Source of the DNA: Candidatus Omnitrophota bacterium
Lineage (GTDB): Bacteria > Omnitrophota > Gorgyraeia > Tantalellales > Tantalellaceae
NCBI GenBank assembly: GCA_018814505.1
Contig: JAHIZQ010000266.1
Span: 1-16,561, forward strand
DNA length: 16,561 bases
Reading direction: 5' to 3'
Both the position numbers and the translations under genes were made by a program. The notes beneath the pieces are model-generated. The model ran no database searches, had not been told where the DNA came from, and saw only the letters and a list, made by a program, of their open reading frames with translations. Below are positions 3,001 to 16,561 of the stretch, piece by piece (the first letter of the stretch is position 1; every line of letters begins with the position of its first letter).

Positions 3001-4856
3001 CAATTTTTATCAAGGTCGCTTTCTTTAAGGTAATCCTCTATATGGTTTTGCCAGATAGAAATATCTATTTCGTCAAGCAATTGTTGTGATTCCCTTTCGA
3101 AAAATTCATATTGGTTTATTTCGTCTTTAGCAATTTCTTTATCGGTCGCGGACACTATTTTCTTTTCGTCAGCCAGGAAAAGTTTCTTTTCTTCATTTTG
3201 CATCTCATGCCATGAATCTTGCTTTTTGTTTATATGTCTTTCTTTTAGTGTTTTATAGAGCGTTTCAAAGCTGTCCATGAGTTGGTTGATTTCATTTTTG
3301 TTTTCATCGGTTTTTATCGCGTTTAATAGCTCTCTTTTTGGATCTTGAAGTTCGGACATCCGGGAAAGCCTGAATATGTCTTTCAAGACGCTTCGCAGGG
3401 CAGAGTCAAATTCCGGTAACTCTTTTTCTTTGTCTAAAGACAATTTTTCATATATAAGATCAACGAAATCTCTCATTGCCGTAACGCGTAAATTGTAATC
3501 CAGTTTTTTATTCATAAACACGTTAAGAAGGAGTTTCGCGAGTTCCGTGGGTTTATTTTCAATCCGCAGTTTAGTGACTACATATGTAAAAAGTTCCATG
3601 TTGGTAAATTCAACGTTTTCTATTACGGAAGTTTTTCCTTGTGCTTCTATAAGTTTCTTTTTCATGATGTCAAACCCAACAAAATGATCGGTTAATTTAA
3701 GTTTTAGGTTTTTAAACTCATCTTCAAGTTCTTTACGTTTTTTTCTGTCAGTTTGCGTGAATCTTATTTTCTCAAGCCGCGTGTCTATTGATGTTATCAA
3801 TTTTTCAAAGCTCCAACTGTCTTTATAAGCGTACGATTGCAGTTTCTCCGTAATAGCTTTTATTTCTTCTTCTTTTTTGTCTGGGGAAACAACTGTCATT
3901 TCAATCGCGTCAAGATACTTTTCAATAGCGTCATCCAGCATTTCATGTTGTTCGTTTGGAGTTTTCCCAAGTTCTTTTTGTCTTGCGTTTTCTTTAACAG
4001 TCTTTTCCGCACGCTCCTTTTTGAGTTTTTCGATTTTTGTTTCTAATTCCGTTTTTTCGGTTTTTAGTTCTTTTAATTTTCCTTCCTTTTCCTGTGTGTT
4101 GGACTCTTTTTCTTTTATGCTTTTTTCAAGTTCCTTAATCTCCTTGCTAAGTGGGATTAAACTGGAGGTAACAGCTTGCGCGTCTTCGCCTTCTGCCTCT
4201 TTTCTTTCACGTTCAGCGTTTAATTCATCTTTTTTGCGAAGTAATGCGTTAAGCGTGGATTTTGCCGCGGTTAAATCATTCTTGGCAGTTTTCTTTTCTG
4301 ATTCAAGGCCGGATATTTTTTCGTTTAAGCATTTTTTGTCATCTGCCGTTTTGCTTATTTCGCTTAAAGATTTCTCGGCTGTATCTACTTTTTCGTTTTC
4401 TTTTCGTTGAGACACTTTCGCGTCAATGTAAGCGCCGGCGATTGTATCGGCGTATTGTTTGCGGATAGAAGCCTTATCAGAACTTTCTATTATCATGTGT
4501 TCCAAGGCTTCTCGATAAGCCTCCCAGGGTTCGCCTCTAAAGTCTGAAATTGTTTGAGCAGGATGAAGTGCTATCCATCTGTTGCTTTTTGCGTTTGACA
4601 TGTCAGTTTCAGAGGTTTTGCCCAGTTTGGAATAAAGGCGTTCTTCGGTCTTATAAGAGACAATAGCACGGTTATTAAGCAAAACGAGCCGATGTGCCAA
4701 TTCTTGGATATTCGTGGGCAGGGCATATATTTCATCCTGTACAAACGTTATTTGGTCAAGATCTTCAGGCTTGTGTTTTATTCGTTCCAAGAAACCTTCA
4801 AGTTTTTCATCTTTTTCAAGGTCGTCTATGTCTTCCGTGAATAGTTCTATGATTTT
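1..4856 (-). CDS. Giant coiled-coil/TPR membrane protein, probable continuation of protein B (protein C, 3' partial)
   Basis: At least 1,618 codons lie in the same frame as B, and the frame runs off the left edge with no stop. Residues below count the codon after the TAA as 1. No ATG or GTG occurs until ATG at 4601 (residue 86). The only earlier candidate is TTG at 4790 (residue 23), with at best a weak GAAGG four bases before it. A separate gene would lose protein-like sequence, so I read this as part of B. Residues 150-300 are a Lys/Glu coiled coil. TPR-like motifs lie at about 619-690 (two), 934-985 and 1173-1225. Two membrane helices lie at about 858-874 and 903-928. The rest is helical and charged, with more coiled coil near 1290-1350 and 1425-1450. 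TPRs usually mediate protein-protein contact, so a scaffold role is likely. Expression depends on readthrough, internal initiation or the stop being an error. Confidence 0.8.
1182..1340 (-). other. TPR-like motif, distal part of protein C
   Basis: Residues about 1173-1225 contain YEKAIALDPINGKAYFGRA, a clear TPR junction, followed by a degenerate helix pair. It continues the solenoid-like character of this region. Confidence 0.65.
1902..2057 (-). other. TPR-like motif following the hairpin in protein C
   Basis: Residues about 934-985 contain AIDYFRKAIKADPQDIALY and then a second, weaker helical pair. It begins six residues after the membrane helix, as in many membrane-anchored TPR proteins. 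Confidence 0.7.
2073..2291 (-). other. Membrane hairpin in protein C
   Basis: Residues about 856-928 contain two hydrophobic helices (PFGILTALALLIVNI and TLLGILGIILAGCIMG) with a loop of about 30 residues. TPR motifs lie on both sides, so the two TPR regions would face the same side of the membrane if both helices span it. Confidence 0.75.
2787..3002 (-). other. Two tandem TPR motifs in protein C
   Basis: Residues about 619-690 contain AIELDPDNAETHRKLAEIH followed by a second unit ending AIEKDPYDFKAHQILID. The A-I-E-x-D-P repeat ends and the 34-residue spacing are characteristic of TPR. Confidence 0.8.
3957..4415 (-). other. Long coiled coil in protein C
   Basis: Residues about 148-300 are almost entirely Lys, Glu, Leu, Ser and Asn with leucine/isoleucine at heptad spacing (for example KLKELKTEKTELETKIEKLK). 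There is only one proline, near residue 235, which probably marks a break between two helices. It is likely a rigid spacer or oligomerisation stalk. Confidence 0.75.
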
Positions 4857-4928
4857 TTATTCTTCAAGCGTGGCTTCTTTATAGTTCCCTTCTACTTCAA
4901 ATGATCGGGATTTATAAATATGCGCCCA
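4821..4928 (-). other. TPR motif split by the TAA at 4857
   Basis: B ends WAHIYKSRSFEVEGNYKEATLEE and C opens KIIELFTED. Set against the TPR consensus, the G-x-Y-x-E-A turn and the second helix align without a gap if the stop occupies one helix-B position: GNYKEATLEE-stop-KIIEL. The stop codon thus stands in place of a single residue of a repeat. Confidence 0.65.
4857..4859 (-). other. In-frame TAA interrupting the B-C reading frame
   Basis: The coding strand reads GAA GAA TAA AAA ATC ATA GAA. Coding-like sequence continues on the next codon in the same frame for at least 1,618 codons. GAA, AAA or CAA would each become TAA by one base change. An indel error is unlikely, because the frame is the same on both sides. 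Confidence 0.9.
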
Positions 4929-7900
4929 GTATTTTTGTTCTTTGGATTCTTTTAAAAGCCTTTCGGTTTCTTTTTTCTGTGATTCTTTAAGTTTTTTTAG
5001 AGCATCTTTATAGTCGTTATATAGGTTTGTCAGGTTTATAAAAACCGCGTCATTATCGTTTTTAACTGCCAATTGTTTTGGGTCGTCCTTTGTCTCTTCA
5101 AAAAGCACTTTCGCGAGCATGTTTCTTGTAGATATGATGATGTTTTCTTTTTGGATTTTTATTTTTTCACTATCATCTTCATTAATTTCAAGCATGTCTA
5201 CGGTATAAAGCCCCGTCATAAATGACCAGAATATTTCGAGTGATTGTATGGCTTTTGTGTAATTATCTGCGTTTTCAATGTTAGCGGTAAGTTTTTCGCA
5301 AAGTTTTATAATTTGTTCAATCTTGTCAAGGTTTTCTCCGGTAATTGCGGTTATTTCCGTTGAGACCAGCATCGATTTATCAATCAAAGGAATGTGTGTA
5401 TTAACAAGAACTTTTTCCAGCATGTCACAAATTTCAGGAAAAGTAAAATGGATATCCCCCTCGCCTATTAAGGTGCTTTTGTCATCTGCGATATGCTTAA
5501 TAATCGTGGTAATAATTTGCGCAGATACGCGTTCACCTAAACCCATTTCCCGGCTAAATAAGCCTGTCAGAAAGTGTTTGGATAACTTAAGTTCATTGTC
5601 GGACAAAAGAAAGCTTATTTTTTCAAAGCGTTTATCTTTATCTGAGATAAAGTCATAAATAAATCCGACGAGCTTATTCTCGTATTCTTTCTTTTTTTCA
5701 ATAGGAAGTTCTTTTATGAGAAGAACACATTTATCTATCAAAAAGTCCAGCTCTGCCGGATCATATTTGCCTTCTTCATCTTTTATTGTTTTTTCTAAAC
5801 AAAGTATTGTCACCGTAAGAAGCAGTTTGTTCTTGGGTTTTGTTTGTAAATCTGCTAATGCTTTGCTCAATATATCCTCAATAGTTTCTTTGGTGATTCT
5901 TGGATCATTTAAGAGTTTCGCGAGTTTTTTTACTGCTGATTCCTGAATTCCGAAAGGATCTTCTAAGAAGGGCAAAACCGTGTTGTCATAAATGTTTTTA
6001 ATGTTTTGGGCGTTGTTTATCCATTTTTTTTGCCTTTTTGCGTAATCCACAGAACTTTCGTTTTCGTCTTGCTGTAATTTTAAAAAACTATTTTTTTCAA
6101 TCCATGCTTCGCTGAGACAATTATAAATTTCATTTTTTAGGTCGATTTTAGCTGTACTATTTAAATCTGAGGGTTTGATGTTTTTAAAAATTTCGTCTAA
6201 AATTGCGCTTATTACCGGCGAATTTACCTCTGTTTGAAAATTTAAAAGAGGCGCCGACGCGCCAGTATCAGAGGATTCTATTAGTTCCCTTTTTCTCAGA
6301 ATAAGAGAATCAAAAAGCGGGACAAGAACTACTGATATATTGTCTTTCGCGTTTTCGCCTGTCTGGAGGATAAGGGCATTAGCGATGGGAGCAATATAAT
6401 CGTTGATAATGTCGCCCACATCCTCATTTTTAAAGTTTTCGAGGGTGTTAATCTGTATGGAGATATCATTTTTTATAATCGGCTTTAGTGTTGTTTCTAT
6501 GATTTTTTTAATTGTCCCGGGATTTTGATTTCTATCAAGCCGCGCGGATATTTCTTTTAAGGCTTTCTCTTTATAAGCGTTTAAGAGGCGTATTTGTTCT
6601 TCTTTTAGGGTACGGTTGTTTCTCTCCAGCAAAATTTCAGCTGTATGGGTTTTGCTTTTTAACTCTGAAGTGGCAGACCCAAGCGCGGTTTCCACTTTTT
6701 TTAGACGACCTTCCAAACGATTTACTTTATTTGTAGCTTTTTGTTTTCTTTCTTTTTGTTTTACAACTTTGCGGTTTTGATACCACGCTGAAAGTCTTGC
6801 TTTCCATAGCGCGAAAAAGGCGTGCTGTTCAGTGAGCCCTGAGAGCCGGGTTATTATCTCCGTGTCTAACCCGGACAATTCACTTGCCGCTTTTTCCTGT
6901 TTAAGTTCTTTAAATTCTTTTTGGTTTTTATCGAGCCACGCGGATAAAACGTTAAGATATGCGCGTCGGGATTTTTTTCGCCAGTTCCAAATTGGCACGC
7001 CTCTATACAAGGTTTTATACCCGCGTAATTTTAAAAGCTCTGATGTCAACTCATTCAGGTTTTTTATCGCGAGGTTAAGATTATCTTTGAGTTCTTTTTT
7101 TTCTTCGCCCGTTTCTGCGGCATTTAATTTTGTCCGCAATAGTTCCATATCCTTCTGCGTTAGAAGAGAAGCTTCTTTTAGAAAACGTTCTTTAAGATAA
7201 ATTCCCTCATAGAGTTTTTTGCGCGCTAATTTTATTTCTGTTAGATTTCTGTAAATGTCGTTCCATAAAGCTTTATTTTCGTTCGTAAGGCTTGCCCAAC
7301 CCTTTTCTGATATATTTTTTTGTGTAAGCGCGTAGCCCAGAAGTTGTTTGCCAATGACCGCGTTAATATTGAATATAAGCATGTCAAGCGTGGCATGAAT
7401 TAATACTGCCGCGATAAAGATTACCGCGACTTCAGTAAAAACTCCGCTCGTAATAAACGCCCACGGCAGAAAAACGCTTAAAAACGAGCTTAAAACGTCA
7501 GGAGAATAGCGCGTTGCCCATTTTTTTGAAGGAGCGGCGAAACTCTCCTCTTTGTGGGAACGAATAAAAAATATCGCGCTGACTGCAATTATCGCGAAAA
7601 ACAAAACCTGAAGTAGCGGTACTTCGCCTAAAATTAAAATAGGAACTTTGTATTGCGCGGTTGTAATGCCGAAATATTTTAAGGCGCATATAACGCTTGA
7701 TAGAAAAAACGCCGGCAGGCCGCGATATAGAGCCTCTTCCTTAAATATACCCATGCCGGATGCTACCAGTTTTTGAGTCGTGTTTCTGCCCTTGGAAAGA
7801 AGCGCGGATTGTGCCTGCGAGAGGTAAAATTCGGCCTGGCGCATTTCTTCACTGTCAGGCTTTTCGCTTTTTTCTTTATACGCGCTGGCTAGTTTATAAT

Positions 7901-10900
7901 AAAGTTCCGCTAAGCGCGAAGAGTCGGGAAATCCCGGGCCTTCTTTCTCTTTTGTAATCTTTTTGATTAGTTCCTTTATTCTTGTATCAGGTTCTTTTGT
8001 CTTTTCTTTTTCTTTTTGCGGGATAGATGCGGAGTCGATAGGCGCTATGCTGTCTTTTTCAATCGCGGTGATATTGTCTTTTAGCAGATCGAGGTCATTT
8101 TTGTGCTTATCCTTTTTGCCTGCCAATATGTCCATTATTTTGTGTAACTTGTCCAAATTCTGGGATTTATTATCTTTTTCAAAGGTATATCTTGGTGTTA
8201 TCGGACGATCCTTAGGTTCCGATAAAGTTTCGTTCGTATATTCGTCAGAAGCAAGTAAATTTTCCTGCTGTTTTATTAATTTCACGTTTAGTAGTTCAAT
8301 AGTTTCTTTCCAGTCTTCCGGAACTGTTATTACGTCAGCGATAATGACTAATAGACTTCGCGGATTATCCGTAACCTGAAGGTTCTCGTCATTAAGTTTC
8401 GATATATAATTTTTTATAGTCTCGGCAATATTTTTTTCCATTGCTTTAAGTTCGTCTTCGTCTTCGTTTTCAATACGCGCGATTCGTAAGCTTGCGGATG
8501 AGACTTGTAGCCATTCAAGAAGTTCAGACAAATTGTTGCTTTCCTTCATCGCGTCCAATTTTCGTAGTCTTCTTCTTTTCTTAAGGCGATTAGCCGTTTT
8601 TTTAGCGTTAGCAAAGTGGGTCTTTTTTAAATTTTCGTCACTTTCTTTATCATAGAGGTCAAGATGACGGTTTATTATTCGCGCGGCGTCAGAAAAACTG
8701 GATAATTTGAAACCCCACCACGGAAAACATTTTTTCATATTCTGTTGTTCCAGAAGTTGAGAAACTTTGGTTAGTTCCTGTTTTTCCCGGCGGTTAAGCA
8801 TGAAATGATCAATTGCCGCGGTTATTTCCACTAACAGGATTATTGATAACACAATTAGGGCTATTCCCCACATTGGGAGAACAACTCCGGCAAAAGGGAT
8901 GGATACAGACGTTGTAACAAACATTGAAATAGTTTTAAAAGTTTCTGCCATTGGGACTATTAAAAATTTTGTAATAACTTTCCCTGCCGTATTAGACATT
9001 ATCCATCCGGGCATTTTTTTGCCGACTGCTTTGGCAACGGTGCCGCCGAATGTTTTCCTAAAAACATATGCTGACGTGATTACAATTGGCAAAATGTATT
9101 TGGCGAACGTTGGAAATTTTGAAAGTATGACTGTTTTATATTGTTTACTTTTATCCTCTTTTTGCGTTTTTGCTTTATCCTCTTTTTGCTCATCTTCTTT
9201 TACAGAAAGGAATCCACGCAGTTCTTTTCGCAATTTGGTTTTCGTGTCCGCATTGTCTGACAGTATGCGGCTTATATGTTCTGACGCGGCTTTTTTATCG
9301 TCTGATGATAACGCAAGTTCGGCAAGTATTATATGCATTTCATCATTATTCGTTCGTTCGGCCTTGTTATATAATTCGAATTTTCTCACAAATGGAAGGC
9401 CGATACCTTCGCTTATTAGGCGGAGGTATAAACGAACTAAGGGATTCCGGCCACTGCCAAGCGCCGCGTTTGCCGCCTCTTTAATTTCAGCGTCGATGTC
9501 TTTTGCCGCAGAAGGCAATGGTTTCGCGTCTTTTATGCCATGGTCTTTTATGTCTGAAATTTGTTTTCCTGTCCGGGCAATCTCGGCATAAATAATTCTT
9601 TTATCCGCGCCTTTCATTAAAAGGCGGTGCCTGTTGAGATAAATGGCAAATTCATAAAGTTTTATGGCTTTGTCAGGGTCGGGTTTGCCGCCCTCCGTGC
9701 CTTGTCCGCGTAGTTTGGCTTGTTCTTTAAATTTATCCGCGAGTTCTTTTATGAGCGCGTCGGTTTTTTTATCAGCTAAAGATACGTTAATAAAACCGTC
9801 TATCAGGCTAAAATCCAAAGTTTCGTTATCTGAGAGACCAATCTGCCGTCTCAGAATTTTCTCTGCTTTTTCTTTAACAAAAATGGAGCGCTGTGACCTG
9901 GAAATATCGGTGTCATCGGGAAGGTTAAAACGTTCTCGCACAAGTTTCGCGTTCTTTTTCATGGAATCATCGTATGCTTTTTTTGCGGCGTTAAAACCTA
10001 TTATTTCTTCCGATACTTCAACCGTTCTTTTCTTCTTGGGTTTGATGAGATGATCCCAAACCCAGTTTTTCCCTGAAATAAATCCTTTCTTTAAAAGTTT
10101 AAAACTCGCAATAACGATTACCGCGTATTTCATTATGGGCATTAGGACTGGTTTTAGGCGCATTACATTGAGCCATGAGGGCAAGGATAATGATCCCAAA
10201 ATTTCTAAAAGTGGAAGAGCCGCGAAATATGCGCCTATTGCCACCAATACGGCAGTTATGCCGAGAAAAATTAGTTTGTTTCGGATTGCGTGTTCTGATG
10301 ACCCCAGATTAAGATACAAACGTTCAAAAATCTTCATAGCCGGAATAGATATTAGAGCCGTTGATATCATTATACCGCTAGTTGCAATAGTAGCGCCAAA
10401 TAACGGCAAAGCCAGACATGATAAAATACCTGCCGCGCTTACCACAAAAATCATGCCTCTTACTTTTGGATTTGGCGCTAGCATTATCCACAAAAGTAAA
10501 GGTTGCAAGCGGCGCAGGAAATTTCTCCAGAGCCGGCTTCCTTTCAAAAACGGTTCTGATTCCGGAACTGTTTCAGCATATTCGTCAATAGCATCTTCTT
10601 GAAAAGAAACTTCACCTACTTTAAGGATGATTTTTCCGTTTTCCTCTTCAATGGTAATGTTTTCAGGGCACACGCTTCCGGGTTCTCTTGACCCAAACGG
10701 AAGAACATCCTTAAAAAGAGGGTCTTCGTCTGAAATGACTGAGGACGCCGGCATTTTTATGCCTCCCGGCATAAATTGAGACACATCCAGACCTGGAATA
10801 GACGGCATTGCCGCGTTGCCGCAAGCCGCGTTTATCCAACTGTTTAATCTGCGAACATACAGCAAAACATCGCCGGAAAACCTGCCCGTACCCAGGTCTT

Positions 10901-11291
10901 CAATTATGGTAAGATTCTCTTTTTTCTTAACAATCCTTCTGCGGGATTCAATGTTTCCCACATTGTTTCGTCTAACTAAATTAAACGCGTCAATATTAGT
11001 TTTTTCAGACGCGCGCGACAGACGGCTGGCAAGTTCTTCATCATTTATACCAGGGTTTATAGCCAGAATATCCCTAACAATGTTTCTGTCAATTTCAAAA
11101 CTTTCAGCAATTTGAGAAATCTTTATGCCGGTTATTCTCTTTTGTTTTAAATCAAAGTCGTTTACGCCCAGGACGGTTACTTTGTTCGGGTCGGATTCGG
11201 ATCCGGCGGTTTCGATTAACGCGGGCATATGTTCACTTTTGATTTTGCCGTTTACGAAGAGTATTACCTGTCCGTTCGAAAGCTTGGGCAC
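4857..11291 (-). CDS. Giant multi-pass membrane protein with CPBP-like protease domain (protein B)
   Basis: The 2,144-residue product is rich in Lys, Glu and Leu, with membrane blocks between long helical regions. The GTG at 11291 is the first start after the upstream stop. A GGTGAG lies 21 bases before it, too far for an ordinary ribosome site, so coupling to A or a start at the ATG at 11228 is possible. Residues 57-83 are LysM-like or helix-turn-helix-like. Membrane blocks lie at about 258-402 and 728-828. Residues 540-690 and 1125-1170 look like helical-repeat solenoid. Residues 1180-1312 carry EEALYR, FIRSH and HATLD, the three motif types of the CPBP (CAAX/Rce1) protease family. The remainder, to 2144, is helical with no family I recognise. 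The end falls inside a TPR repeat that continues past the stop into C, so this C-terminus is probably not the ancestral one. The coding reality is certain; the function is not. Confidence 0.9.
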   Translation of the reverse strand: MPKLSNGQVILFVNGKIKSEHMPALIETAGSESDPNKVTVLGVNDFDLKQKRITGIKISQIAESFEIDRNIVRDILAINPGINDEELASRLSRASEKTNIDAFNLVRRNNVGNIESRRRIVKKKENLTIIEDLGTGRFSGDVLLYVRRLNSWINAACGNAAMPSIPGLDVSQFMPGGIKMPASSVISDEDPLFKDVLPFGSREPGSVCPENITIEEENGKIILKVGEVSFQEDAIDEYAETVPESEPFLKGSRLWRNFLRRLQPLLLWIMLAPNPKVRGMIFVVSAAGILSCLALPLFGATIATSGIMISTALISIPAMKIFERLYLNLGSSEHAIRNKLIFLGITAVLVAIGAYFAALPLLEILGSLSLPSWLNVMRLKPVLMPIMKYAVIVIASFKLLKKGFISGKNWVWDHLIKPKKKRTVEVSEEIIGFNAAKKAYDDSMKKNAKLVRERFNLPDDTDISRSQRSIFVKEKAEKILRRQIGLSDNETLDFSLIDGFINVSLADKKTDALIKELADKFKEQAKLRGQGTEGGKPDPDKAIKLYEFAIYLNRHRLLMKGADKRIIYAEIARTGKQISDIKDHGIKDAKPLPSAAKDIDAEIKEAANAALGSGRNPLVRLYLRLISEGIGLPFVRKFELYNKAERTNNDEMHIILAELALSSDDKKAASEHISRILSDNADTKTKLRKELRGFLSVKEDEQKEDKAKTQKEDKSKQYKTVILSKFPTFAKYILPIVITSAYVFRKTFGGTVAKAVGKKMPGWIMSNTAGKVITKFLIVPMAETFKTISMFVTTSVSIPFAGVVLPMWGIALIVLSIILLVEITAAIDHFMLNRREKQELTKVSQLLEQQNMKKCFPWWGFKLSSFSDAARIINRHLDLYDKESDENLKKTHFANAKKTANRLKKRRRLRKLDAMKESNNLSELLEWLQVSSASLRIARIENEDEDELKAMEKNIAETIKNYISKLNDENLQVTDNPRSLLVIIADVITVPEDWKETIELLNVKLIKQQENLLASDEYTNETLSEPKDRPITPRYTFEKDNKSQNLDKLHKIMDILAGKKDKHKNDLDLLKDNITAIEKDSIAPIDSASIPQKEKEKTKEPDTRIKELIKKITKEKEGPGFPDSSRLAELYYKLASAYKEKSEKPDSEEMRQAEFYLSQAQSALLSKGRNTTQKLVASGMGIFKEEALYRGLPAFFLSSVICALKYFGITTAQYKVPILILGEVPLLQVLFFAIIAVSAIFFIRSHKEESFAAPSKKWATRYSPDVLSSFLSVFLPWAFITSGVFTEVAVIFIAAVLIHATLDMLIFNINAVIGKQLLGYALTQKNISEKGWASLTNENKALWNDIYRNLTEIKLARKKLYEGIYLKERFLKEASLLTQKDMELLRTKLNAAETGEEKKELKDNLNLAIKNLNELTSELLKLRGYKTLYRGVPIWNWRKKSRRAYLNVLSAWLDKNQKEFKELKQEKAASELSGLDTEIITRLSGLTEQHAFFALWKARLSAWYQNRKVVKQKERKQKATNKVNRLEGRLKKVETALGSATSELKSKTHTAEILLERNNRTLKEEQIRLLNAYKEKALKEISARLDRNQNPGTIKKIIETTLKPIIKNDISIQINTLENFKNEDVGDIINDYIAPIANALILQTGENAKDNISVVLVPLFDSLILRKRELIESSDTGASAPLLNFQTEVNSPVISAILDEIFKNIKPSDLNSTAKIDLKNEIYNCLSEAWIEKNSFLKLQQDENESSVDYAKRQKKWINNAQNIKNIYDNTVLPFLEDPFGIQESAVKKLAKLLNDPRITKETIEDILSKALADLQTKPKNKLLLTVTILCLEKTIKDEEGKYDPAELDFLIDKCVLLIKELPIEKKKEYENKLVGFIYDFISDKDKRFEKISFLLSDNELKLSKHFLTGLFSREMGLGERVSAQIITTIIKHIADDKSTLIGEGDIHFTFPEICDMLEKVLVNTHIPLIDKSMLVSTEITAITGENLDKIEQIIKLCEKLTANIENADNYTKAIQSLEIFWSFMTGLYTVDMLEINEDDSEKIKIQKENIIISTRNMLAKVLFEETKDDPKQLAVKNDNDAVFINLTNLYNDYKDALKKLKESQKKETERLLKESKEQKYWAHIYKSRSFEVEGNYKEATLEE
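7356..7754 (-). other. Possible CPBP (CAAX/Rce1-type) intramembrane protease domain in protein B
   Basis: Residues about 1180-1312 hold four hydrophobic segments. EEALYR (1185-1190, codons 7722-7739) fits the EExxxR motif, FIRSH (1242-1246) fits FxxxH, and HATLD (His1299 codon 7395-7397) fits HxxxN/D. In the known family the glutamates and histidines form the active site within the membrane. The first two motifs are about 56 residues apart and the last two about 53, somewhat wider than I expect, and FIRSH sits at the end of a helix rather than within it. The domain may be active, degenerate, or a chance resemblance. Confidence 0.5.
8808..9110 (-). other. Membrane block 2 of protein B (about 3 helices)
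   Basis: Residues about 728-828 have hydrophobic stretches near 732-746, 788-805 and 806-826 (IALIVLSIILLVEI is the clearest). The stretch between contains Gly/Lys-rich loops. Long charged helical regions lie on both sides. Confidence 0.7.
9150..9189 (-). repeat. 16-bp direct repeat, 24-bp period, in a Lys/Glu linker
   Basis: The plus-strand word tttatcctctttttgc occurs at 9150-9165 and again at 9174-9189. It encodes a duplicated octapeptide unit (QKEDKAKT / QKEDKSK, residues about 702-717 of protein B) in a charged linker just before membrane block 2. It looks like a recent slippage duplication and is probably neutral. Confidence 0.85.
10086..10520 (-). other. Membrane block 1 of protein B (about 4 helices)
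   Basis: Residues about 258-402 contain hydrophobic runs near 262-274 (short), 279-299, 300-318, 339-362 and 383-400. They are bounded by basic residues (GSRLWRNFLRR before, KKGFISGK after). I recognise no family motif. The basic flanks suggest both ends face the cytoplasm, but this is inference. Confidence 0.75.
11042..11123 (-). other. LysM-like or helix-turn-helix-like segment in protein B
   Basis: Residues 57-83 contain SQIAESFEIDRNIV followed by LAINPGI. An IA pair, an aromatic, then NPG fits the longer LysM variants, in which 16 residues separate IA from N. The same stretch also resembles a helix-turn-helix (IAESFEIDRNIVRDIL). I cannot decide between them. Confidence 0.3.
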
Positions 11292-11306
11292 ATTAAGCGC
11301 GTTTTT

Positions 11307-11309
11307 TTA
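11307..11309 (-). other. In-frame TAA separating protein A from protein B
   Basis: The coding strand reads GAG TGT TAA AAA AAC GCG CTT AAT GTG. The stop is followed by five sense codons (KNALN) and then the GTG start of B, all in the same frame. The residues before the stop (TNGVDASPITDGEC) could be a natural C-terminus. A normal gene boundary is the simplest reading, although continuity of the frame leaves readthrough or loss of a sense codon open. Confidence 0.85.
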
Positions 11310-14300
11310 ACACTCACCGTCAGTGATGGGAGAAGCGTCTACTCCGTTTGTAATTTCTTGCACAACAAGAACGCCGTTTTCTTCAAAAACCGCGCGCATT
11401 CTTTTTGGGATAAGAAATATTTCGCCATTGCGAAGTTCTTCTTTTATTTCTTCAATAATAATCCGCGCCCCGGGTTTAACATTATTTTCTTTTGCTAAAA
11501 ATTTCGCGGATTTATAAAGCTGTCCTTTCTCATTTTCGTCGTCAAGCGCCACGTACATATCGAATTCGTATGGTGGTTCCGGTATCGGCTCTGACGCGCT
11601 CATGGCGTTGTTAAACGCTTTGGAAATGCACCTATCAACATCCTTTGCTTTTGTTTTACGTCTTTCTTTTATTTTTTCTTGAATTTTTTTTGCTTCTGTT
11701 TCCTGCGCGCGTTCATTCAGGTTTTCTTCAATACTGGGAGTTACTGCATTTGCTTTCATTATTATGCCGCCAGAGGGAAAGGCGACTTGTTCCCCAGTCC
11801 AGTCGGTTGTTTTTTTTGTGCCGTATTCCACCTGCCGGATTGTTTCACTACTCTGCCCTAATGCCATAACTGGGGGTGGGTCAATCCATCTTTCACTGTT
11901 TGTCGGTTTTGTTATTTCTCCAACCTCGAGACCTTTTTCAAATATTCTTCTTTCAAGATTTCTCAAAAATTTCTGGAATCTAACCTTAAAATTGTCTTGA
12001 GGCTGTTCCTGGTCCGCTTTCGTAGCGGCCTCTTTTGTAGCAAGTGCCATTTCGATTTGGTTAACCGCTTCAACTCGCGTTTTACCGGGCAGTTTTTCTT
12101 TGTTATTTTCAAGCGCTTCTATTAAGAAGGCTCTGGCAAGATTTTGCGTGTAGTCAGTTAAAAAAGTTTCCGTAGTTTCAGTAAGTTTATTCTCAAAGTC
12201 TTTCGCTACTGGTTTTTTGTTTGAGGCATTGATTCTATGTTGGTATTGCGCCATAAGGCTTTGTTCTTCTTCAATAATATCTGATTTTACTCTGCCTCGG
12301 GCTACTTCAAGATATACTAGATTGAATAGCAGATGTTGACCGAGTTCTTTTTTTAATTGTTTCCGCAATTTTTTGAGCGCTTTTTTAAACGCCCTTTTGT
12401 TTTTCGCAAGTTCCTCAAGGCGGGTTTTCTTGTAGCCAAGCTTTTGCATGAGAGCGTCAATTGTTATCCCGCTTTTACTCAGTGTCAAAGTAATTTCAAG
12501 GACGGCGCGCAAACGTTTCGTATGTTCGTCAAAATCTTTCGCGTCTTTCCAAGCTTTTTTTAGAGTCTTCGTTTTTTGTTTTTTATCCTTAATTGTTTTA
12601 CCAGTAATGGCATAATCCAAAATTTCGTCAATTATATTTTCTGTTAATTCTTTTGAATTCGCGAGTTGTACAGGATCTTTGCTCTCTTCTTCAATTGTCA
12701 CGCCATGTTTGGTTATTTTTTCGTACTCCTTTTTTTCGAAAGGTCGGCGCTTCACTGCCACGCGATACATAACATTTGTTAAAACGCCGCGCAAGATACG
12801 TGACTCAGAATCAATTTTATCGCGGTTACATTGACCGATATAAAAATACAAATCCATTTTTTCGCGTATTTCTTCATTCTTTTCGCGGTTTTGTTGAAAA
12901 GCTTCTTTGGTTTCCTTCATCGCGCGTATTCTTTGCTGTGCTGTTTTTTTAAGATCGTTTTGGATTTCTTGGCGGTCTTTAATGATTTCTGTCCGAGAAA
13001 GCTTGATATAAAGCAAATCTTCCTCGATTTGGCGAATTTCTTCATCCAATATAAAATTGGAGATCTTTAACGCCGCAAGGCGGTTTCTTTCGATCTTTTT
13101 GTGACTAAGTCTTATTTTTAACTGCTCTTCCTGTTTTATTTTTTTTGTGTTGAACTTATAACGCCCTTTTAACGACATATACCAATGCGATTCGATTTTC
13201 ATGATGCGTTCTACGAGCTCTTTACGGTAACCGTCAGCATATTCAAAAACGCGTTTTCTTCTTTTTTGATACTCTTTTTGTTTGTCTGCCGGTAATGGAA
13301 GAGCTGAGTCATACCAACCCGGAACGCCTATGGTAGCAAAATCACTGTTCTGATCGATGGTTTTAGCGTTATCCAGGTCAGGTACGCCCAAAACTCGCCA
13401 GACACGTTTACTTCCCGGATCCAAGACACGCGCGGCTCTTCCTCCAACCTGGGCGCTTAACCGTGCCGTTTTCATGTCTTCCTGCTCAAGTTCTAGACCG
13501 TTCACGCGCGAGGCGATAATAATTTCAAACGCGTGAAGAAATAATTGCTTGTTGAAATCTTCTTTGTGTTTTCCTTCGCCTCGTTTCGCGTTAAGCTGTT
13601 CTTTTAGAAGCTCTTTTTTGTCATAAGCTTCTTTGATGCCTTCCGCGTCACGGTTGTCGCACGCGGTTTTCCAAGCTTGTTCAGCTTTAAAAAGTTCTAT
13701 GTGAAGTTTCCCTGGAAAAATAAAGCCTAAGAGGTCTTCCATTTCCTGGAGATATTTTTGAATTTCGTCGTGTTTTGTTGAAATTTGTGTTTGTAATTCT
13801 AGGGGCACCTCTTTATGTAAAATTGCTTTTTCTTTAAGGTTTCGAAGTTCTTTTTCAGCACGCCCAAGTTTTGTTTCAGCTGTAGCCCGTTCTTTTTTTG
13901 TGTCCGCAATGTTGACGTCAAGTAAATTTGAGAGATCGTTTAAAGCCGTTCTCAAGTCCTGTATTAGATAAAGTCTTTCTAAAGAGTTTTCATTGAGCGA
14001 ATCCATTTCCCGAGTTTTGTCAAGGCTTAGTATTGTTTCGATTATGATTTGTACAATTTTTTCGGCATTCCATCGGTCAAAACTGTCTGCCAAGGTTTCA
14101 TTTTCAATAATTTCACGCAGATATTTTACGCCGTTCTCCCATTTGGGAAGAGCCATATTAATACCTCTTCCCAAGAGTGACGTTCCAACCGAAATATGGC
14201 GCGGCAAACCCGCGAAGCATTCTGCTATTTCAATATCATCGTTTGCTAAAATTAGATGCATATATTCTTCAGGGATTTCCAGTTCATCCAGGATTACAGT

Positions 14301-16561
14301 AAACGCGTCCCTGGCATGACCGCCATCGCAAAGAATTATGGGTTTTGGAGAATTGTCGTTTTCGCGTCCTGCTTTTACTTCATCCGCGAGCCGTTCATAA
14401 AGTTCTTCAAAAGTAGCCACGTTCTCAGTTTCTTTTGTAATGACAGCTCTTTTATACATTCTTGCGAGCTGGATAATGTCATCCAGACCTTTGCCAAAGT
14501 TTTCCCGCATTTCATCGGCTATTTGTTCTTTGGGCATGGTACCACTGTCTCCGCCGAATTTCCCATGAAATCTGTTTATGACATCCTGTCCGCTCATCCT
14601 GCTTTTGGTAAGATTTTCTCCTGAAACGGGGGGCTGTTTTCCTTCCTTGTTAATTTCCGAGTAATCTAAGGCGATCATGGCTTCCAAATACGCGCCGTAT
14701 CTTTGTTCTCTTTGGTTGTTTAACGCGCCTGCCACGTCTTTAAGTTTAATGGAAATTCCTCCGTGTTCGTCTTCGATTACTTCAAAATGTTTGCCCCGTA
14801 CACGGCTAAAAATAACAGTTAACGCGCAGTGAATTCCTTCTTCAAAGTCTTCCATACTTTCCGCGCCCATTTTCTTTCCAAGATCCGAATATAACCCTTC
14901 AATTACTGCCCTACCGTGCCGGGTAAGAGTTATTTGCCGGTTTTTGTGGTCAATTGTGCAAATAGATTTATCATTGTGATCGCGCTTTTTTTGATTGAGA
15001 GGCGTGTCGTCAATCCAACCGACTTGAAGCTCATTAACGTCTAGAACGCCTTCGGAAACCTTTTCTTTAATCACTTTTGCTAACCTCGCGTAATTCAAAA
15101 GGCGATTTTTTTCGTTTGAGTCGGCATTAAAGGGTTTTCCGAATTCCGCTATGATGTAGTCGGTAAGAAACTGATCCATTAAAACTTCGTCAATTTCGTC
15201 TATGTTAGCAAAGTAAAAGTTAAGTTCGTCGTTCGCGTCAAGACTATTACCAAAGATTCGTTTACGCCGGTCATCATCATCTTCCTGCATTAAAAATCCA
15301 AGGTTCGCGATGCTGACGTATGTTACCCCGGGTGTGGTAAAAGCTTCCGTCAGCTTTTTTTCACTACTCTTGATATTGATATGCCGTACGGTAAAATTGT
15401 TACCCATAAGCCGTTCATACACTCTTCCCATACCTTCGCCTTCAGTGCTCGCGTTACGTTTCGCGAGACCATCAGTTGTTTCTATGGAAAAAACCGGTTT
15501 TCCGGTAAGGGCTCTTAACCACAATGCAAGACAAGTGGTTGAAGTTTTACCTTCACCTGTAGGAAACTCAAGAATTTTTCCTATCGCGAGTTTACTTCCG
15601 GCAAAAATACGCATGTTCTGACCTTTTACCCTAAAATCTTTTTCCATTAAAATGCCGAATATAAAAAGCCCGGTTCCTTTGATTATAAATTCGTTATGGC
15701 GCTTGTTGTTTTCGTTAAAAATGTCTTCGTCCGCGGCTAGTTCCAGTAACCCGTCTTCGCCATCGCGTATTTTTTCAATTATTTGCGTTTGAATTGCTCG
15801 TCCAAAAGCATTAAACCCTTTTTCAGTTTTACCTTTTACATATAAGTCCTGTTGTTGCAGTGCGAGCGGGTTTAATAAATCAGCCGCGGTCAACTCTTTT
15901 GGGACAGGGGCTTTCTCTTTAAGCGCTTTTTCTTTACGCGCTGTATTCATATCTGTTAGAAGTGTGTTGATTTCGAAGTCAGAAAAACTTTTAATAACAC
16001 TTTCCAGCTCGCGGTTCATAAAAAGTTCCACCTTATCTTGAAACAGAAAAGCTTCCATGTATCCGGCGGATTGTTCTTTTTGTCTGCGGTACTCTTCAGC
16101 CATTTTCCTGATAAGCATACTAATTTCCACGCGATGCTTATGTTTTTTATTGGAATCAAATAATTTTCCATACATGGTTTCTTGTTCATAATTAAACCGT
16201 TTATTCGTGTCGATTTGGTCAGCCAAGTGCATATTTTCTAATTGTGCGGTTTCGATTTTTTGTTTAAGTGTTTTGCAACGCGCGCCTAATTCTTTAAGTT
16301 TATTCAAAGACGCTTTTAAGCGTTCGGGAGAAATTTCCCCGTCGCGAATCATTTTTTCTAATGTGTTCCATTCACGTTTTACTTGAAGATATAGGCGAAT
16401 GTTCGATTTAATGTCACGCAGTTCCTTCTCAAATTTATCTATATGTTCAGAAACTTTGCCTTTCAGTTTTTTTCTTTCAGCATCTTTTCCAATGTAAGGG
16501 TTTTTAGCTATGTGATGCACAACTTCAAGAAGGCGGTAATAACTTGAGTCGCCGTATCCCA
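11307..16561 (-). CDS. Giant coiled-coil protein with divergent SecA-type motor (protein A, 5' partial)
   Basis: This is probably a cytosolic or membrane-peripheral ATPase; I see no signal peptide or membrane helix. The frame is open to the right edge, with 13 more codons before the GTG at 16520, so the true start lies outside the window. Residues below count that GTG as 1. Residues 1-270 are charged and helical. Residues 280-1045 hold a SecA-like motor: P-loop TGEGKT (321-326), DEID (441-444), a substrate-crosslinking-like segment (about 515-620), GRG (784-786) and GGRAAR (1026-1031). Residues 1090-1540 are Lys/Glu-rich coiled coil. Residues 1540-1600 are Gly/Pro-richer, and a compact tail ends in GEC. 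Known SecA proteins are about 800-1,000 residues, so this one is at least 1.7 times longer. The SecA zinc-binding tail is absent. It ends in TAA 15 bases before the next start, in the same frame, so the genes are surely cotranscribed. Family assignment is fairly sure; the substrate is unknown. Confidence 0.9.
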   Translation of the reverse strand, partial: GYGDSSYYRLLEVVHHIAKNPYIGKDAERKKLKGKVSEHIDKFEKELRDIKSNIRLYLQVKREWNTLEKMIRDGEISPERLKASLNKLKELGARCKTLKQKIETAQLENMHLADQIDTNKRFNYEQETMYGKLFDSNKKHKHRVEISMLIRKMAEEYRRQKEQSAGYMEAFLFQDKVELFMNRELESVIKSFSDFEINTLLTDMNTARKEKALKEKAPVPKELTAADLLNPLALQQQDLYVKGKTEKGFNAFGRAIQTQIIEKIRDGEDGLLELAADEDIFNENNKRHNEFIIKGTGLFIFGILMEKDFRVKGQNMRIFAGSKLAIGKILEFPTGEGKTSTTCLALWLRALTGKPVFSIETTDGLAKRNASTEGEGMGRVYERLMGNNFTVRHINIKSSEKKLTEAFTTPGVTYVSIANLGFLMQEDDDDRRKRIFGNSLDANDELNFYFANIDEIDEVLMDQFLTDYIIAEFGKPFNADSNEKNRLLNYARLAKVIKEKVSEGVLDVNELQVGWIDDTPLNQKKRDHNDKSICTIDHKNRQITLTRHGRAVIEGLYSDLGKKMGAESMEDFEEGIHCALTVIFSRVRGKHFEVIEDEHGGISIKLKDVAGALNNQREQRYGAYLEAMIALDYSEINKEGKQPPVSGENLTKSRMSGQDVINRFHGKFGGDSGTMPKEQIADEMRENFGKGLDDIIQLARMYKRAVITKETENVATFEELYERLADEVKAGRENDNSPKPIILCDGGHARDAFTVILDELEIPEEYMHLILANDDIEIAECFAGLPRHISVGTSLLGRGINMALPKWENGVKYLREIIENETLADSFDRWNAEKIVQIIIETILSLDKTREMDSLNENSLERLYLIQDLRTALNDLSNLLDVNIADTKKERATAETKLGRAEKELRNLKEKAILHKEVPLELQTQISTKHDEIQKYLQEMEDLLGFIFPGKLHIELFKAEQAWKTACDNRDAEGIKEAYDKKELLKEQLNAKRGEGKHKEDFNKQLFLHAFEIIIASRVNGLELEQEDMKTARLSAQVGGRAARVLDPGSKRVWRVLGVPDLDNAKTIDQNSDFATIGVPGWYDSALPLPADKQKEYQKRRKRVFEYADGYRKELVERIMKIESHWYMSLKGRYKFNTKKIKQEEQLKIRLSHKKIERNRLAALKISNFILDEEIRQIEEDLLYIKLSRTEIIKDRQEIQNDLKKTAQQRIRAMKETKEAFQQNREKNEEIREKMDLYFYIGQCNRDKIDSESRILRGVLTNVMYRVAVKRRPFEKKEYEKITKHGVTIEEESKDPVQLANSKELTENIIDEILDYAITGKTIKDKKQKTKTLKKAWKDAKDFDEHTKRLRAVLEITLTLSKSGITIDALMQKLGYKKTRLEELAKNKRAFKKALKKLRKQLKKELGQHLLFNLVYLEVARGRVKSDIIEEEQSLMAQYQHRINASNKKPVAKDFENKLTETTETFLTDYTQNLARAFLIEALENNKEKLPGKTRVEAVNQIEMALATKEAATKADQEQPQDNFKVRFQKFLRNLERRIFEKGLEVGEITKPTNSERWIDPPPVMALGQSSETIRQVEYGTKKTTDWTGEQVAFPSGGIIMKANAVTPSIEENLNERAQETEAKKIQEKIKERRKTKAKDVDRCISKAFNNAMSASEPIPEPPYEFDMYVALDDENEKGQLYKSAKFLAKENNVKPGARIIIEEIKEELRNGEIFLIPKRMRAVFEENGVLVVQEITNGVDASPITDGEC
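13386..14363 (-). other. NBD2 with large helical insertion between motifs V and VI
   Basis: Residues about 720-1045 of protein A. A strand reading KPIILCDGG (726-734) starts the domain, like 'QPVLVGT' in SecA. GRG codons are at 14163-14171 and the motif VI block is at 13410-13451. Between them, residues about 855-990 are rich in Lys, Glu, Leu and Gln with heptad-like spacing, which I read as an inserted coiled coil that does not disturb the flanking motifs. Confidence 0.75.
15111..15683 (-). other. NBD1 with Walker A and Walker B (DEID)
   Basis: Residues about 280-470 of protein A. The segment before the P-loop (GQNMRIFAGSKLAIG) sits where SecA has its nucleotide-sensing 'DVQLLGG' region; Gln301 is the probable counterpart of the conserved glutamine, but the surrounding match is weak. 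TGEGKT and DEID are both intact, consistent with ATP binding and hydrolysis. Confidence 0.8.

Follow-up and report, generated by a model that had tools for sequence, protein, structure and literature searches.

Giant open reading frames (ORFs) are known in the Omnitrophota from the accessible parts of two reports (PMC10066038, with ORFs of over 20 kb; PMC12057145). The accessible portion of the main text of neither report contains the word 'SecA', and that of PMC10066038 makes no mention of interrupted giant ORFs. The chance that a gene meets a stop codon rises with its length, according to the accessible part of PMC11573180, the only source found in the literature searched in which Omnitrophota and stop codons are treated together. 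Nothing was found in the literature searched on in-frame stops as an assembly error in metagenome-assembled genomes, and none of five words for interrupted genes was found in PMC12863079, which deals with the giant genes of lactic acid bacteria. As for the leakiness of stop codons, the accessible part of PMC5289835 gives UAA as the least read-through bacterial stop and describes a following U as strengthening the stop.

Here we describe a giant frame of the Omnitrophota that carries two in-frame stops. The window, that is, the whole stretch of DNA analysed, is the entire contig C164 of 16,561 bases, from a bin of 316 contigs that is 87.8% complete. The placement of the contig in the Omnitrophota rests on its relatives, as genome G002 belongs to the same family and the proteins P0002 and P0003 are named as Omnitrophota proteins. 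Over its whole length the minus strand is a single frame of 5,519 codons, interrupted by just two TAA codons, at codon 1751 (11307-11309) and at codon 3901 (4857-4859). The first piece (11310-16559; 1,750 codons) and the last piece on the contig (3-4856; 1,618 codons) each run off a contig end. The middle piece (4860-11306) has 2,149 codons, or 2,144 counted from a GTG at 11289-11291, which is the first start-like codon past the upstream TAA. Past the downstream TAA, the first start-like codon is a TTG at 4788-4790.

The preliminary description had reported the minus-strand TAA at 4857-4859 and 1,618 open in-frame codons after it, and both are present in the sequence, the open codons continuing up to the contig end. 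It had also stated that no ATG or GTG follows for 85 codons, which is correct, but a TTG lies only 22 codons on, at 4790. Its view of one protein split in two agrees with the homology described below in that a single protein is interrupted, but there are three pieces, with the second TAA at 11307-11309. Likewise, the 2,144-residue form does exist as an ORF, but its GTG follows the upstream TAA, so that this form is the middle of a larger frame.

The domain layout of the frame is a SecA DEAD-like domain in the first piece, no Pfam family in the middle piece, and TPR in the last piece. The SecA DEAD-like domain (PF07517) is at 14526-15617 on the minus strand (E 2.7e-19; 70 bits, cut-off 24.6). 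Only this model passes, and the full-length SecA model TIGR00963 gave 65.9 bits on the giant frame against a cut-off of 800. The TPR matches, also on the minus strand, include PF13428 at 2805-2930, some 640 codons past the downstream TAA, and PF13431 at 1251-1325 (E 8.1e-12), and the Pfam TPR matches in the window begin about 620 residues past that stop. A TPR motif had been proposed to run in register across the stop. However, no Pfam TPR with E ≤ 1 was found in the 316-residue read-through stretch, and the junction stretch of G002 has a single weak TPR-like match (PF23914; E 0.026, below the cut-off) that lies downstream of the stop site. Thus, it is homology, rather than TPR register, that supports the continuity of the protein across 4857-4859. 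Separately, a SecA DEAD-like motor domain was seen within giant proteins not only in the window but also in G002 (8,305 codons) and in a frame of 14,821 codons in G241, where the domain locus is L032 (G241:C10:2191-3591); L007 is also listed for such domains.

The counterpart in G002 is a single 8,305-codon ORF of about 24.9 kb in which the three pieces follow one another in collinear order. In the match to this ORF, the first two pieces adjoin with one codon between them, and one HSP crosses the 4857-4859 stop. P0002 (7,557 aa) is collinear and intact over both stop sites, with 29% identity over the junction region. P0003, a partial protein of 3,945 aa, aligns as one piece to window residues 1-2425; it crosses the upstream stop site intact and ends short of the downstream one. 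Chance does not produce a 5,519-codon frame, open but for two stops, that is collinear with a relative's 8,305-codon ORF. Both stops, in the three-way alignment, lie in ungapped columns where G002 and P0002 have one residue each, and the position of the stop is a sense residue in 2 of 2 relatives at 4857-4859 and in 3 of 3 at 11307-11309. At the upstream column, two residue types occur among the three relatives, and two of these relatives carry a residue that cannot be turned into TAA by a single base change. A comparison of homologues at the 4857-4859 codon, suggested in the preliminary description, thus found one ungapped sense residue each in G002 and P0002. These are the only two relatives that reach this site, both are intact at about 30-35% identity, and no homologue that also stops there with a start of its own was found among them. 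The suggestion that the stop is a recent nonsense mutation, a strain variant or a consensus error is supported by both relatives having sense at the site and by the constraint kept downstream.

Over the 81 columns centred on the 4857-4859 stop, identity to G002 is 0.44 (66 aligned pairs), and around the upstream stop it is 0.25 over 73 pairs, the contig mean being 0.34 with a standard deviation of 0.08. Over the columns aligned in all three proteins, the share of residues found in the window only is 0.164, 0.134 and 0.142 in the first, middle and last pieces, respectively. By this measure, the parts past the stops do not appear to drift faster, which is compatible with stops that are recent or erroneous and with translation that continues past them.

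The homologue search gave matches in 2 of 59 genomes of the relatives set, and in two of the same 19 genomes, the own genome included, for the family and order sets. At the class level, 18 of 384 sampled genomes matched, with full-length matches only in G000 and G002 and partial matches, E 2.5e-7 or weaker, in the other 16. The search of the species' genomes for junction homologues returned one locus, and none were found in viral contigs and phage records. The protein database matches, for which only the candidates sharing most words were scored, were P0001, P0002 and P0003. P0001, a predicted protein of 1,596 aa, is the window itself and begins at the TTG at 4790.

The remainder of the gene was sought elsewhere in the bin. 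Of the G002 protein, the N-terminal part is matched best on C298 (E 9.6e-109; a 787-codon ORF up to the contig end) and more weakly on C27, C150 and C135, and the C-terminal part finds its match on C53 (E 1.2e-255; 1,576 codons with no internal stop), where the ORF terminates in TAA at about the same place as the G002 C-terminus. Overlaps between the ends of C164 and those of C298, C53, C27, C150 and C135 were sought and none were found, so that C298 and C53 are linked to the giant gene by homology only. On this basis, C164 holds the middle of one giant gene of the Omnitrophota, some 8,000 codons long, with its ends probably on C298 and C53. We also observed related N-terminal modules running off contig ends at L060 (3378-5738), L026, L027 and L061 (on C298, C27, C150 and C135). 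Several giant paralogues, each broken by assembly, may therefore be present in the bin. Inspection by eye showed a hydrophobic stretch, signal-like in character, close to the start of the copy on C298. A TAA apparently inside the C135 match was considered as a further interruption and rejected, as it lies just before the matching ORF (3771-4823).

The use of TAA in this genome was determined from 71 readable other contigs with 497,897 bases, after 29 all-N contigs of 100 had been left out. The closed ORFs of at least 150 codons (n=336) end in TAA (189), TAG (79) or TGA (68), and RF1 and RF2 are both above the NCBIfam cut-offs in the bin. No TAA-reading tRNA was found among the 22 called anticodons of the 23 tRNA loci of this incomplete bin, one locus being cut by a contig end. 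The base after both giant-frame stops is A, as it also is for 32 of the 90 other TAA ends sampled. A shared TAA-AAA context was considered as a signal and rejected, as the window contains 30 copies of TAAAAAA against 31 expected; nor is AAA after TAA a special context, being found at 7 of the 90 TAA ends elsewhere. In G000, a tmRNA was predicted on contig C28 (L159, 1244-1627), with a tag peptide, APTMMGTGSLVSALGY, that ends in Tyr. Tag peptides of tmRNA usually end in Ala, and the reading of the L159 tag may be off.

Two TAA codons within one constrained frame could be taken to mean that this organism reads TAA as an amino acid. This is contradicted by the 189 long ORFs that close with TAA and by the presence of both release factors, and TAA accounts for only 2 of the 5,519 codons of the giant frame; we regard reassignment as practically inconceivable. 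Programmed or basal readthrough of UAA, giving a fraction of longer chains, would agree with a frame and a constraint that continue past both stops and with a next base that is not the strengthening U. However, that base is ordinary here, UAA is described as the stop least given to readthrough, the anticodons called include none for TAA, and the RNA past the stops (103 nt) folds no better than shuffled sequences (z 0.38 and -0.63). Moreover, the stop is not conserved, as the relatives have no stop there. We regard readthrough as very improbable, and the earlier proposal that it sets the ratio of two forms finds no positive support, TAA being the commonest stop, both release factors being present, no fold being found and the relatives being stop-free. 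Alternatively, the split gene may still be in use, its pieces made separately by reinitiation at the GTG and the TTG and acting together. The two codons lie 5 and 22 codons past their stops, respectively, and constraint is kept downstream. The anti-Shine-Dalgarno duplex energy of the TTG, -3.5 kcal/mol, is a middling one, within the middle half (-6.2 to -1.7; median -4.2 kcal/mol) of 128 presumed starts, taken as the first ATG of 128 long ORFs. But 15% of the window's 211 in-frame NTG codons (median -0.7 kcal/mol) equal or beat this value, and the GTG has no ribosome site (+1.9 kcal/mol). The GTG is thus a poor start, and the TTG is undecided. In the first sample, each of the other 15 same-frame neighbour pairs has a start no more than 14 codons away, and the gene is unsplit in G002 and P0002. 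We consider such use of the pieces unlikely, and distinctly improbable the stronger proposal that the SecA-like/TPR gene is kept split by the two UAA codons with its downstream parts made, by reinitiation or rare readthrough, in separate doses.

It is also possible, though we would not expect it, that the gene of the organism is intact and that a consensus, assembly or strain-mixture error has produced one or both TAA codons. The bin is fragmented and incomplete, the frame is otherwise perfect and constrained, and the genes of the relatives are intact. On the other hand, such stops are not bin-wide. We defined a comparable stop as one with 60 open, coding-like codons on either side, and found two in the window, which makes up 5.2% of the eligible codons, and 30 on the 71 other contigs; only one of these 30 (L177:8665, with flanks of 108 and 62 codons and no Pfam family) is also at least 20 codons from a start. 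A uniformly poor consensus in the bin is not seen. Because the window was chosen for the other stop, the second stop is only mild evidence for a gene-specific cause. Nor is the upstream stop explained by one miscalled base, since the residue of two of the three relatives is more than one change from TAA, unless the residue of this lineage itself had differed. Among the background stops, two at L111 lie between different known genes, and that at L062 has TPR before it and no family after it, in a stretch that looked non-coding by eye. At L077, L116 and L177, neither part has a family, and Pfam does not decide. As a control, G002 has 2 of 15 same-frame neighbour pairs (L120:8740 and L129:2582) and 2 of 19 coding-flanked stops (L005:7194, which is antisense to the giant ORF, and L006:5501) at least 20 codons from a start. 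Distance to a start is thus not unique by itself, and the case rests on comparing the frame with its relatives. The stop at L120:8740 (contig C117 of G002, minus strand) is a TGA with same-frame segments of 280 and 423 codons on its two sides, and the next start-like codon comes 66 codons later; this is possibly another interrupted gene, in G002.

We propose, with a probability of about 50%, that the stops are recent nonsense mutations in a giant accessory gene, one ancestral gene having been interrupted twice. The two stops, the intact collinear relatives and the ordinary use of TAA as a stop are direct observations. In this lineage or population, the giant frame would have acquired two in-frame TAA codons. 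A ribosome coming from the true N-terminus most likely halts at the upstream TAA, and such a chain would usually end before the 4857-4859 codon. Most probably, this is an accessory gene that was inactivated or truncated recently, or else a single allele from a mixed population. Two stops and zero frameshifts in 5,519 codons are unlike the usual mixture of old decay, and the decay, if such it is, would be recent because there is no frameshift and no loss of constraint; translation that continues past the stops would also account for the undiminished constraint downstream. We infer that the stops are genuine mutations of recent origin and that the organism can dispense with the gene.

Taken as it stands, the locus is nearly ordinary: one fragmented bin holds a copy of a giant gene that is interrupted by stops. 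The locus nevertheless calls for caution, as counts of giant proteins that are based on ORFs can split or miss such genes, and it offers a small test case for the dispensability of giant genes. Should the stops be maintained and the downstream parts made, this would be an unusual way of dosing the segments of a giant protein. Compared with the giant ORFs described in the accessible part of PMC10066038, the locus is from the same phylum, and its counterpart in G002, at about 24.9 kb, exceeds 20 kb, whereas the frame in the window is 16.6 kb, is cut by the contig ends and carries two stops. With programmed stop readthrough it shares an open, constrained frame past a stop, but UAA is not a leaky stop, the stop is unconserved and no stimulatory fold was found. 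Like ordinary nonsense-interrupted genes, it has in-frame stops where its relatives have sense codons; unlike them, it has zero frameshifts and is constrained alike in all three pieces.
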